From assembly GCF_006715565.1 (NCBI RefSeq), contig NZ_VFNL01000001.1, positions 992,001 to 1,056,000 on the forward strand: a DNA stretch of 64,000 nt, written 5' to 3'. The position numbers and the translations under genes are program-made. Positions 28,704-45,753 of the stretch are shown here, in pieces. The notes beneath the pieces are model-generated. The model did no database searches. It had not been told where the DNA came from and saw only the letters and a list, made by a program, of their open reading frames with translations. Position 1 is the stretch's first letter; each line of letters starts with the position of its first letter. Origin of the DNA: Microbacterium sp. SLBN-154. Lineage in GTDB: Bacteria > Actinomycetota > Actinomycetes > Actinomycetales > Microbacteriaceae.

Positions 28704-29158
28704 CGAGCGACGCCTTGCGCATCCTCGACGGTGTGATGCGCCTCGCGGACCTGGTTCAGCGCGACATGGCCGAACCCTTCGCCGGCACGTCGTTGACAAT
28801 GTCTCGGGCGGCGCTCCTCTGGGTTCTCCGATCGACGGGACCGTCGACGCAGCAGGCGCTCGCGACGGCGCTGGAGGTCAGTCCCCGCAACGTCACCGGA
28901 CTCGTCGACGCGCTGGAGACGAGCGGCCACGTCGAGCGTGCACCCCACCCGACCGATCGACGGGCGACGCTCGTCACGCTCACCGACCTCGGACTCGATG
29001 TCGTGCAGCAGATGGTCGCGCAGCGCGAGCAGATGGCCGATGATCTCGTCGCCGAACTCGCGTCGGCCGAAAAGGAAGCTCTCGGCGCAGGCCTGGAGAA
29101 GCTGGCGAATCGCTACGAGACCATGCTGGCGGTTCGTGAGCGGAAGGACTCCCCGTGA
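28700..29158 (+). CDS. MarR-family transcriptional regulator
   Basis: 152 residues with the winged HTH: QQALATALEVSPRNVTGLVDALE is the HTH region and HPTDRRATLVTLTDLG the wing. It overlaps both neighbours (ATGA with the SnoaL gene, GTGA with the next), so the three form one operon. The dyad upstream of the first gene is the probable target. Confidence 0.85.
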   Translation: MTSDALRILDGVMRLADLVQRDMAEPFAGTSLTMSRAALLWVLRSTGPSTQQALATALEVSPRNVTGLVDALETSGHVERAPHPTDRRATLVTLTDLGLDVVQQMVAQREQMADDLVAELASAEKEALGAGLEKLANRYETMLAVRERKDSP

Positions 29159-29865
29159 CCTCCGCATCCGTCCCGACGTCAGCGGCTGCCCCAGAGCCGG
29201 CGACTCCGGGTCCCGCCTTCCCCGCCGAGACGCGAGCCGATCGTGCGAAGCGCCTCGCACGTCGTGCGACCCAGATGGAGGCTGCCGGCTGGGTCAGTCT
29301 GGCGCGACTCGTCTTCTTGCGGCCGCGCGTCCCCGCGGGAGCGGTCGCGGTGCCGTACCACCGGCCGGTCACCGGCATCCTCACGATCTTCATCGTGCTG
29401 TCAGCGCTCGAGGTGCCGATCATCGATCTGATCGTGCATCCCTGGCCGTTCGTGCGCATTCCCCTTCTGATCCTCGGGATCTGGGGTGTCGTCTTCATGC
29501 TCGGGATGCTGGCGGGCTACGTCACTCGTCCGCACGCCGTCGGTGCGGGCGGCCTTCGCATCCGTCAGAGCACCGACCTCGAGATCGCGCTCAGCTGGGA
29601 CGACGTCCTCTCGGTCGCCCGCCGGCGCGAAGTCCGGCACAGGGGCCCGAAGTTCACGCCCGGACGCACGGATGATGCGTGGACCGTGCACCTGCCGATG
29701 CAGGATGAGACCAACCTCTCGGTCAAGCTCGAGCGTCCGATCGAGGTGGCGATGCCGCAGGGTGTTGTTCGCATCGACGAGATCCGCTTCTGGGCCGACG
29801 ATCCGACGGCCTTCATGGATGCCGCGCGTCCGCACCTCGAGGCTGCGCCTGCGTCCGCTGCGTGA
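29155..29865 (+). CDS. Membrane protein of unknown function with a soluble C-terminal domain
   Basis: 236 residues: a polar N-terminus, two closely spaced membrane helices (about 72-90 and 97-118), and a beta-rich cytoplasmic domain of about 110 residues with LRIRQSTDLEIALSWDDVLSV reminiscent of bacterial PH-like domains. GTG at 29155 overlaps the MarR stop (GTGA). The function is unknown, but coupling to the MarR/SnoaL genes places it in the same response. Confidence 0.65.
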   Translation: MTSASVPTSAAAPEPATPGPAFPAETRADRAKRLARRATQMEAAGWVSLARLVFLRPRVPAGAVAVPYHRPVTGILTIFIVLSALEVPIIDLIVHPWPFVRIPLLILGIWGVVFMLGMLAGYVTRPHAVGAGGLRIRQSTDLEIALSWDDVLSVARRREVRHRGPKFTPGRTDDAWTVHLPMQDETNLSVKLERPIEVAMPQGVVRIDEIRFWADDPTAFMDAARPHLEAAPASAA

Positions 29866-29867
29866 TC

Positions 29868-30020
29868 GAGAAAGTGGCCCCCTCGAGCGCACGTCTGGCG
29901 AGGGGCGCTCGAGGGGGCCGGACTGCACGGGCAGGCGGCGAAACGGGGGAGTTCGCGCGTCACCGCACGCGGGGGGAGCGTGCGGGCGTTGCCTGACCGG
30001 GGGAGTCCTCACCCAGCCTA
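29868..30020 (-). ncRNA. Putative C-rich-loop small RNA A (6C-like)
   Basis: Minus-strand element. TAGGCT (30020-30015) is a -10 box, putting the 5' end near 30008. Then come a weak hairpin with ACUCCCCC, an 8-bp stem at 29963-29985 closing a UCCCCCC loop, and a 6-bp stem at 29938-29956 (one bulged U) closing UCCCCC. Last is a 15-bp terminator stem at 29876-29919 followed by ACTTTCT. C-rich loops plus an intrinsic terminator are the architecture of the actinobacterial 6C RNA, whose loops pair with G-rich mRNA sites. Homologous to the element at 43341-43488. No protein is plausible here. Confidence 0.6.
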
Positions 30021-30115
30021 GGCCTGCATCCTGAGAGCGACGGAGCGCACACGGGCCTGTTCGCGCATTTGCGGTAAATCGGATGCGCCGGGGCCAGCCC
30101 GTGCTTCCGCGCGTG

Positions 30116-30283
30116 TCAGTGCGTGGGTGCGCTGCGCGCCGAGATCGCCCGGGCGGGCGCGACGGGGCGCTCGTGCTGATCGGCGACGGAGATGCTGCGG
30201 CCTACGAGCAGGCCTGCGGTGATCGAGAGAGCTATCCAGGCAACGACGGCGACGATCGCGATGACGAGGAGGGTGGTGACCAT
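30116..30283 (-). CDS. Small single-pass membrane protein
   Basis: 55 residues: one membrane helix at about 2-28 (TTLLVIAIVAVVAWIALSI...) and a basic, Ala/Pro-rich tail. The ATG at 30283 has GGAG seven bases upstream (AAGGAGAGTCTT), strong support for such a small gene. No family recognised. Confidence 0.65.
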   Translation of the reverse strand: MVTTLLVIAIVAVVAWIALSITAGLLVGRSISVADQHERPVAPARAISARSAPTH

Positions 30284-43306: not shown

Positions 43307-43340
43307 CGTGCCCGCCTCTGACCGTGGCCCGTCGGATCAG

Positions 43341-43488
43341 AGGCGGCCCCCTCGAGCGCAGTACCGACGAGGGATGCTCGAGGGGGCCCGACTCCACGTC
43401 ACGGCCGCGGGTACGGGTGCCCGCGCGGCGCGGTCAGCCGGGGGAGCGCTGACAGCGTCACCGATCAGGGGAGTCTCCGGTCAGGGTA
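43341..43488 (-). ncRNA. Putative C-rich-loop small RNA B (paralogue of RNA A)
   Basis: Minus-strand element beginning near 43476 after a TACCCT box (43488-43483). It comprises a weak 4-bp hairpin presenting CUCCCC and a 6-bp stem at 43433-43453 closing GCUCCCCCG. A 5-bp stem at 43407-43424 and a terminator stem at 43345-43388 follow. The terminator arms (GGCCCCCTCGAGC) and the preceding GTGNAGTC are shared with RNA A at 29868-30020. The U-tract is poor here (GCCTCTG). Homology over the whole element with a different intergenic context argues for a duplicated RNA gene. Confidence 0.55.
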
Positions 43489-43585
43489 TTGGCCGCTGGC
43501 GGGTCTCACCACGATCTGGGCGGCCGATCCCCGTGTTTCTCATCTGAACTCACCGGGCGCAGCTGGCTTCACATGGGCCGCCTCG

Positions 43586-45151
43586 TCACCGCTCCCGCAT
43601 CGCGCGGGCGATGACCTCGCCGACGAGCACCGCCGACGCGGCGGGCCCGCGGGTAGGGACGACGGGGAGGATCGAGGTGTCCGCGACGCGGAGGCCGGCG
43701 AGGCCGTGAACGCGACCTGCACCGTCCACGACCGGGCCCATCGGAGCCGTGCCGCACATGTGGATCGCCGTGCCGAGGTGCGACAGCATCCACGCGTCGA
43801 GCGTCTCGTCGTCGAGGTCCGATTCGTTGAGCTCCGTCAGCCGACCGCCCATGTCGCGCACGAGCGCGGCCGCCTCCCGGATCCCTGCGCGCAACCGCCG
43901 GCGGTCGTCGACGTCGGCGAGGTAGCGGTACTCGATGCGCGGCGGCGCAGCGGGGTCGGGGGCTTGCAGGGCGAGCGACCCCCGCCCGGCCGGGCATTGC
44001 AGTCCGACGATGAGCGGCAGGTCGTCGCGGTGCGCCACCTGCATCGCGGCGCGCCGCGCCGAGATTCCCGTCACCGCACGCGCGGTGCGGAGAGGATGCC
44101 GCAGTGCGGCCCCGAGCCCCCCGGCGAGGGTGCGCGTGGTTCCCGTCAACAGATACCCCAGCGGCTTCACCGACAGGAGGATCTCGACGTCGGCGTCGGG
44201 ATGGCCGCCGGTGTCGATGTTGACGGCCGCGGGGAACGCGAATCGTTCAGCCGGGTCGATCGTCGGGCCATCCGGTCGCCACGAGAGGGAGATGTCGGGA
44301 TGATCCGAGAACGCCGTTCCCACGGGAAGATCGGCGCGGACCCGGATGTCGAAGCGTTCCAGATCGGCTGCCGGCCCGACACCGGAGGCGAGGAGGATGC
44401 GGGCCGAGCCGATCGCGCCTGCCGAGAGCACGACCTCGTCGGCCCGGATCTCGCCCCGGGAGGTCTCCACGCCGATGGCGCGGATTCCGTCGAAGATCAC
44501 GCGACCCACCGTGGTGCGATCCAGGATCCGCAACCCCGGTCGGGCCCGCACGGCGCCGGGGAGGTACGCCATCGCTGTGTTCACGCGCTGCCCGTCGCGA
44601 ATGTTCGAGGGAACGGGGCCCGCGCCGGGAACCCCCTCCCCGTTCTTGTCGGGCTCCTCGGCGTGTCCCCGCACCCGTGCGGCCCTCAGGAAGGCCGCCG
44701 CGAGGGCCCCCGGCGCCGGCCGCCGCACCGGCATAGGGCCCGTGGAACCGTGCATCGGAGAGTCGGGGAAATCGACGTCGGATTCGATCGCGCGCCACAC
44801 CGGCAGGGCCGCGTCGTACGACCAGCGGTCGCCGCCGACCTGGGCCCACCGGGCATGATCGCCCGAGCGCGCGCGAACGAAGTAGGCGCCGTTGATGGCG
44901 CTCGAGCCACCCAGCATCCGTCCGCGCACGACGGTGTAGGCGAGGTCGGGTGTCAGGTGACCGAGAAACGACCAGTTCGCGGGATGCCCCGGCATGGCGC
45001 CTCGGATGCTGGAGGCGTCGCGCACATCGGGAGCGAAGTCCGGATCGGCTGGTCCTGCCTCCACGAGGATCACGTCGCGGCCGTCATCCTCGGTCAGGCG
45101 GGCGGCCAGGGCCGACCCCGATGATCCTGCACCGACGATGAGTGTGGTCAT
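43586..45151 (-). CDS. mftG: Mycofactocin-system GMC oxidoreductase MftG
   Basis: A 521-residue GMC flavoprotein: FAD motif VGAGSSGSALA at 6-16, GRMLGGSSAING, and the C-terminal catalytic block HLGTAIHMCGTAPMG with the active-site His. In mycobacteria MftG is needed to reoxidise reduced mycofactocin, linking alcohol dehydrogenases to respiration. The start (45151) overlaps the mftR stop by one base. Assignment as MftG rests on linkage to mftR/mftA; other GMC enzymes share the fold. Confidence 0.9.
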   Translation of the reverse strand: MTTLIVGAGSSGSALAARLTEDDGRDVILVEAGPADPDFAPDVRDASSIRGAMPGHPANWSFLGHLTPDLAYTVVRGRMLGGSSAINGAYFVRARSGDHARWAQVGGDRWSYDAALPVWRAIESDVDFPDSPMHGSTGPMPVRRPAPGALAAAFLRAARVRGHAEEPDKNGEGVPGAGPVPSNIRDGQRVNTAMAYLPGAVRARPGLRILDRTTVGRVIFDGIRAIGVETSRGEIRADEVVLSAGAIGSARILLASGVGPAADLERFDIRVRADLPVGTAFSDHPDISLSWRPDGPTIDPAERFAFPAAVNIDTGGHPDADVEILLSVKPLGYLLTGTTRTLAGGLGAALRHPLRTARAVTGISARRAAMQVAHRDDLPLIVGLQCPAGRGSLALQAPDPAAPPRIEYRYLADVDDRRRLRAGIREAAALVRDMGGRLTELNESDLDDETLDAWMLSHLGTAIHMCGTAPMGPVVDGAGRVHGLAGLRVADTSILPVVPTRGPAASAVLVGEVIARAMRER

Positions 45152-45753
45152 CAGCTGGCTCTCCACGCGTCGCCGAATCTGACGAAGGCCTCGTCGATGA
45201 GGGCGAGGAGGTCGGCATCCGGGTGCGCCAGCCACTGCTCGTACGCCGCCAGCGACAGGCCAAGGCACGCCCACGCGATCGCCTGGGGTTCGATCGCGTC
45301 GGGCGGATCACCGAGGCGCTCGGCGACGAACTCGGCGATCACCTGCCGCCACTCCGCGTACCGCAGCGTCGAGTGGGCGGTGAGGCTCGGCACGTTGAAC
45401 AGGAGCCACATGCGCTCCCGGTGGACCGGGATCTCGATGTCGGGGAACCGATTGAACTCCACCACCGCCGTACGCAGGGCATCGCGAAGGGGCAGGTCGT
45501 CGGGGAGACCGGCGAGGTGGGCGCGCATTCCCGCGAGCATGCTCTCGAAGTCGCCCCATGGCAGGTCGTTCTTGGATCGGAAGTACCGGAAGAACGTACG
45601 GCGTCCGATCCCCGCGGCCTCGACGATGTCATCGATGGTGGTCTGCTCGAAGCCGCGCTCCAGGAAGAGGGCGAGCGCGATGTGGCTCAGCTGGCCGTGC
45701 GTCGTGGCGGGAGCGCGCCCCATCCGCGCGCGGGTCTCGGAGCTCACCGGCAC
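45151..45753 (-). CDS. mftR: Mycofactocin-system TetR repressor MftR
   Basis: 200 residues: HTH QTTIDDIVEAAGIGRRTFFRYFRSKNDL. The Trp-rich PWGDFESMLAGMRAHL and RERMWLLFNVPSLTAHSTLRYAEWR segments are diagnostic of the mft TetR subgroup. It faces mftA over a 92-base intergenic region with a promoter and dyad. In mycobacteria MftR is relieved by acyl-CoA; whether this holds here is unknown. Confidence 0.92.
   Translation of the reverse strand: MPVSSETRARMGRAPATTHGQLSHIALALFLERGFEQTTIDDIVEAAGIGRRTFFRYFRSKNDLPWGDFESMLAGMRAHLAGLPDDLPLRDALRTAVVEFNRFPDIEIPVHRERMWLLFNVPSLTAHSTLRYAEWRQVIAEFVAERLGDPPDAIEPQAIAWACLGLSLAAYEQWLAHPDADLLALIDEAFVRFGDAWRAS

Follow-up and report, generated by a model that had tools for sequence, protein, structure and literature searches.

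The analysed window covers 64,000 nucleotides of DNA from Microbacterium sp. SLBN-154. Its minus strand contains at 29868..30008 a candidate small RNA, here named A, whose predicted transcript measures about 140 nt and is supported by its fold, orthologues, compensatory changes and a drop of conservation outside. The gene of a 236-aa protein (29155..29865, plus strand) is convergent with A. On the other side, on the same strand as A, there is a 55-aa gene (30116..30283) that ends about 107 nt before A and, by eye, encodes a membrane protein. Neither protein has a Pfam match. Open reading frames crossing A are unlikely to be genes, since the loops of the orthologues contain indels of 1-2 nt, which fit a coding role poorly.

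The original prediction for this region consisted of a minus-strand -10 box followed by three C-rich loops and a 15-bp terminator stem. Indeed, the -10-like hexamer TAGGCT (30015..30020, minus strand; the four remaining A orthologues have TACGCT) is followed after a few bases by GGACUCCCCC, which begins at 30008. The same strand contains the conserved sequence CTCTCAGG (CTGTCAGG in genome G228) at 30030..30037, whose TSTCAG core ends 10 nt ahead of the -10 hexamer, and a block conserved across the A orthologues at 30056..30088 (approximate limits), a possible regulatory site. The terminator hairpin (29876..29919, minus strand) likewise stood up to inspection: it is a perfect 15-bp inverted repeat with a 14-nt loop, a length equalled but not exceeded by other perfect stems in the window whose loops measure 3-24, and is followed by the tail ACTTTCTC at 29875-29868. 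Simple scans at A detected neither a promoter of the sigma-70 consensus nor a T-rich terminator.

The 5' part of the transcript folds into a branched domain (29920..30008, minus strand). The closing stem P1 pairs 30008-30004 with 29924-29920, and the inner stem P1b pairs 29999-29991 with 29936-29928. They are accompanied by hairpin P2 (29958..29988), with a C-run in the loop at 29976-29971, and hairpin P3 (29938..29956), with a CUCCCCC loop and its C-run at 29949-29945. The fold of A has an energy of -80.1 kcal/mol (z -4.03) and is equalled by one of 200 dinucleotide shuffles; single-sequence folds match the consensus in four of the five A copies, the best A fold of G228 departing from it. Two of the three proposed C-loops are apical, with a mean unpaired probability in the five orthologues of 0.97-1.00 for P2 and 0.96-1.00 for P3. 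The remaining 5' C-run (29999..30003) is not a loop of this kind, as it adjoins the closing stem and is unpaired at 0.40-0.68; P1 engages part of the 5' end of A. This C-run is also the least conserved of the three, interrupted in three of the nine known copies. The three TCCCCC motifs within 90 nt are the sole such triple in the window, both strands considered. Since a first-order Markov simulation produced such a triple in 6 of 400 strands, the cluster by itself is just moderately rare, and it is the conservation in orthologues and in a paralogue that places A beyond chance.

The gene convergent with A has matches in 102 of 366 Microbacterium genomes. From these a clade of six was drawn, comprising the own genome (G000) and five at 83-90% identity, namely M. 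sp. AK009 (G340, L017), M. kunmingense (G074, L018), G109, G228 and G260; the remaining 96 matches are at 52% identity or less. A covariance model of the A and B sequences, R2, finds A in five of the six clade genomes and the paralogue B in four. The orthologues of A are located behind the same small gene in all five A-carrying genomes, M. kunmingense included, and this gene is itself conserved there, whereas the downstream neighbour changes in M. kunmingense and G260. The share of invariant columns per 20, gap columns being treated as variable, is 0.45-1.00 in the A transcript and 0.45-0.55 in its promoter block, compared with 0.00-0.10 just downstream of A and 0.05-0.25 between the promoter block and the upstream gene. 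The terminator loop and the upper stem are nearly invariant in the five species.

The paralogue B is diverged (43337..43477, minus strand, with a 13-bp terminator at 43345-43388). Its terminator was first picked up by a DNA search, 13.5 kb from A in the window. A model made of A sequences only, with filters off, matches the whole B unit at 31.4 bits (E 1.2e-5), the next match in the window having E 0.13. On the minus strand B is preceded by the -10-like hexamer TACCCT (43483..43488), by the conserved block AGTTCAGATGAGAAA (43536..43550), which is unlike the block of A, and by a GMC oxidoreductase gene (43586-45157 of the window). The fold of B alone is not exceptional (z -1.47, 16 of 200 shuffles being as good), and the four B copies have z -0.64 to -2.72 against mononucleotide shuffles. 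The outermost pair of P1 is lost in B. Stable stems exposing unpaired C-runs are present in A, and the P2 loop of B is unpaired at 0.86-0.99. The CCCCC of the P2 loop is retained in all nine copies, while the P3 run has 5-6 C in the five A copies and CCC in the four B copies. A common descent of the gene convergent with A and that convergent with B is not supported, the best BLASTP stretch being 14 residues long with E 0.033.

The terminator loops of A (29876-29919) and B (43345-43388) have the sequence CCCUCGYCRG in common. Within A and within B these loops are nearly invariant, which exceeds the need of a plain terminator, and the loop is possibly a further pairing site. In G260 (L099, L156) a lipoprotein-like start, judged by eye, comes next after B in the same orientation, with a GGAGG site just past the terminator, unlike the situation in the other three genomes with B.

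The stems are conserved across relatives and show the covariation that the original prediction had called for. In the alignment of nine sequences 94.3% of the cells form standard pairs; shuffling gives 85.1%, none of 500 shuffles reaching the observed value, and slid controls give 28-46%. Cells changed on both sides number 26, the shuffles having 10.1 and the slid controls 0-5, and the covariation score is 0.279 (0.134 in shuffles); this alignment was fitted to the covariance model, which favours the model. Two other counts do not rise above shuffles: seven pairs are changed on both sides (reached by 135 of 500) and 20 further pair types are seen (reached by 119 of 500). The both-side changes cluster in P2 (four pairs), P3 (two pairs, all cells paired) and one pair of P1b. 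RNAalifold, applied to an unfitted alignment of seven sequences, recovered P1, P3 and the terminator, with four pairs changed on both sides. It is very probable that this part of the minus strand is a genuine bacterial sRNA gene with C-rich loops that is so far uncatalogued, and A and B very probably constitute a real, structured, duplicated family of RNA genes.

Plain DNA similarity among relatives extends little past the terminator and therefore cannot show the range of the family, which was done with covariance models. Of 136 loci found with a neighbouring protein, the best 80 were searched, yielding M. kunmingense (L018) at 100.7 bits and two weak matches at 25.4 and 21.4 bits. A model of four A sequences, R1, matches eight of the 366 Microbacterium genomes, five strongly (87.1-113.4 bits) and three weakly (G218, G186 and G384, 27.3-28.6 bits). 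Among 398 genomes of the family, R2 matches six, the own genome strongly and five from other genera weakly (29.5-40.5 bits). The weak R1 and R2 matches were set aside as chance. Each lies within an open frame that runs for 299-1027 aa between stops, and CTCCCC occurs at most once per strand; long open frames are common in GC-rich DNA, so that this rejection is suggestive only. Two more R2 matches within the six clade genomes (E 0.65 and 0.91) were also attributed to chance. No other convincing copies were found in the 366 Microbacterium and 398 family genomes, with 10-11 candidates scored per genome, a depth that could overlook diverged members. Within the reach of these searches, A and B are limited to one small clade. 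The fixed neighbours and the presence of at most two convincing copies per genome argue against a mobile repeat, and no match was found in phages or plasmids.

In the midpoint-rooted DNA tree of the convergent gene G228 and M. kunmingense are separated from a group of the own genome, AK009, G109 and G260, with support 92/94, which falls below the star threshold of the tree tool; the protein tree with three outgroups left the six clade members unresolved. B is confined to the second group. In AK009 the 213 bases 29869-30081 are replaced by five, the flanks aligning at 87% and 91%. The gap runs from inside the upstream block to the terminator tail, and the small gene is kept. Given that B occurs in one tree group only, the simplest history would be that A came first, B arose by duplication and A was lost in AK009.

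One possibility is that A has no promoter of its own and is the 3' UTR, or a small RNA processed from the 3' UTR, of the 55-aa gene. This gene is on the same strand and stops close ahead of A, the scan found no sigma-70 consensus, and B likewise stands behind a gene of its own strand. However, the -10 hexamer and the upstream block are conserved and the stretch from the gene end to this block is not. Moreover, the genes preceding A and B are unrelated, and AK009 keeps the small gene but lacks A together with most of its upstream block. This explanation appears unlikely.

The difference between the upstream blocks makes separate regulation of the two genes probable. The PafBC/RecA-NDp motif has the form TGTCRGTG-N8-TANNNT. 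Of this motif A has just the TSTCAG core, at the corresponding spacing from the -10, and by eye B has no such match. With one mismatch allowed, the pattern occurs at 60 places in the own genome, compared with 19 for a reversed control. This offers a lead, and nothing firmer, towards DNA-damage control of A by a PafBC-like element. In C. glutamicum the 6C RNA is described as about two-fold up under mitomycin C. Several of the 60 places read TGTCGGAGG..TANNCT, perhaps a promoter class of Microbacterium.

In the mechanism that we infer, from transcription through mRNA pairing and the direction of the effect to the targets, A and B would each be transcribed independently as a non-coding RNA of about 140 nt. 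The branched scaffold of closing stem, inner stem, P2 and P3 would keep the C-runs exposed, and the separate GC-rich hairpin would end the transcript. The pairing partners of the exposed C-runs would be G-rich stretches (GGGGGAG) located at ribosome-binding sites, and this pairing would lower the translation of several mRNAs. A and B probably tune other genes in this way. For A and its paralogue, a role as a trans-acting small RNA with C-rich loops is the reading towards which we lean, the confidence in it being slightly lowered by the interruption of the 5' C-run in three of nine copies and by a wobble in G228 (see below).

Instead of pairing with mRNA, the C-rich loops might serve to sequester or deliver a protein that binds RNA. 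A scaffold with several exposed copies of a motif would suit a sponge, and conservation is highest in the P2 loop and the terminator. However, no actinobacterial protein is known to bind CUCCCCC. Further, small RNAs with C-rich loops, namely B11 (PMC12395582) and sX13 (PMC3771888), pair with G-rich mRNAs according to the available parts of their descriptions, and thus the protein-binding explanation seems quite improbable.

Among the closest known RNAs is 6C of actinobacteria, which according to the available text has a pair of stem-loops that each carry about six consecutive C (PMC4046766). B11, the 6C RNA of mycobacteria, represses by pairing of its C-rich loop near the ribosome-binding site, and its authors note that target prediction from C-runs is inaccurate in GC-rich mycobacteria (PMC12395582, available part). 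The original prediction had likened the element to 6C with no obvious sequence match. cmscan with the 6C model RF01066 gives no match at E <=10 for the own A or for the four A and four B copies. It is nevertheless conceivable that A and B are strongly diverged 6C members, as they come from the same class, have C-rich loops and are of similar size, and the own genome has no 6C above the cut-off (the best score, at a hairpin behind a different gene, is 26.4 bits; cut-off 47 bits). Further, a true 6C may score below the cut-off, as in C. glutamicum, the only one of 14 named control genomes that matches RF01066. However, 66 of 118 genomes of the class do match the model, 52 of them above the cut-off, and none of the nine copies does. 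The architecture also differs. Eight 6C loci that were folded each form two simple hairpins, of which the second resembles a terminator and has the second C-run as its loop. In A and B, by contrast, a closing stem is combined with a branched junction, the terminator stands apart, and there are two paralogues. The terminator loop of A and B has just CCCC or CCC, and the longer runs are in P2, P3 and the 5' strand. Membership in 6C is therefore considered very improbable.

sX13 of Xanthomonas, in the accessible part of its description, has three C-rich motifs (4C/5C) on stable stems and acts on G-rich mRNA sites independently of Hfq (PMC3771888). It is similar to A and B in presenting C-rich motifs on stable stems; it is set apart by its host and by its published description as three distinct stem-loops preceded by an unstructured 5' region, with no closing stem described in that part of the source. 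The same paper, as far as it was available, describes C-rich loops matched to G-rich targets in HPnc5490 of Helicobacter and RNAIII of Staphylococcus, which on that description can be set beside A and B, their hosts being unrelated. Rfam gave no matches in the window at the gathering threshold, and no Rfam 15 family is above its cut-off for the A and B copies. Below threshold were several microRNA precursors at the terminator hairpin, among them mir-1540 (27.1 bits, cut-off 90), sodF_sRNA on the opposite strand (16.5 bits, cut-off 46), and two microRNA matches at the loci of other copies, outside the unit; all were rejected. A and B are most likely a separate family with its own architecture that works like 6C/B11 or sX13.

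Finally, it is highly improbable that A is a mere DNA-level or terminator element: its hairpin is nearly symmetric and lies between convergent genes in the window, but the 90-nt domain preceding the hairpin covaries as RNA, and in M. kunmingense and G260 the unit stays while the downstream neighbour differs.

The open-licence literature searched lists no study of small RNAs in Microbacterium and no description there of an RNA like A and B. If the interpretation is true, they are an uncatalogued RNA family of this genus, outside Rfam 15 above cut-off, and regulation by C-rich loops arises on different scaffolds in actinobacteria. A and B would then show compactly, within six species, how a bacterial small RNA is born, duplicated and lost, with AK009, which is devoid of A, as a natural control.

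Candidate targets were sought with the pattern GGGGGAGT-N(1-12)-RTG, which occurs 54-76 times per genome in six genomes, compared with 21-30 for the reversed pattern, the matches comprising real starts and others. From 143 matches counted in G260 and G228, 40 stretches with ATG were taken. Among the matches listed, seven pairs of stretches are common to these two genomes, and two of the pairs have real starts as judged by eye, upstream of purA (adenylosuccinate synthetase, Pfam PF00709) and of a glycosyltransferase gene.

The glycosyltransferase has domains PF06722 and PF00201 (UDPGT) in the full frame of G260, the 166-aa fragment alone having no Pfam match; its start was assigned by eye, and there is an in-frame GTG 33 nt upstream in G260. 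At E <=1e-30 it is matched in three of the six clade genomes (G260, G228, G109) and in eight of 18 others, with no match at E 1e-30 in the own genome, AK009 and M. kunmingense. In each of the three clade copies the AUG is preceded by CGGGGGAGUCC, which is complementary over 11 nt to the 5' end of A. A single U replaces C in this part of A in G228, where pairing would need one G-U wobble. Seven outgroup genes read GAAAG- or GAAGG-like and do not contain CGGGGGAGUCC; one more is unaligned at the start. This distribution would fit co-adaptation of the site with the small RNA, in a gene that came up through the motif search itself. A broader scenario, in which a lineage-specific pair of global Shine-Dalgarno-targeting RNAs was born in one clade and duplicated, the promoters diverged and target sites were rewired afterwards, A maybe being responsive to DNA damage through the PafBC-like element, is rather unlikely as a whole.

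The purA gene has GGGGGAGT ahead of its ATG in all six clade genomes and in 12 of 18 others, which indicates that the site is independent of the small RNA. In the own genome the purA sequence ACGGGGGAGU is complementary to ACUCCCCCGU of P3, the ends of ACUCCCCCGU being paired in the fold. The purA leader, consisting of GATAGGAT..GGGTGTAACCGTCC and the G-rich site (L246-L264), is conserved in many Microbacterium genomes, with GGGGGAGT present in 18 of the 24 examined, and may itself have a regulatory function.
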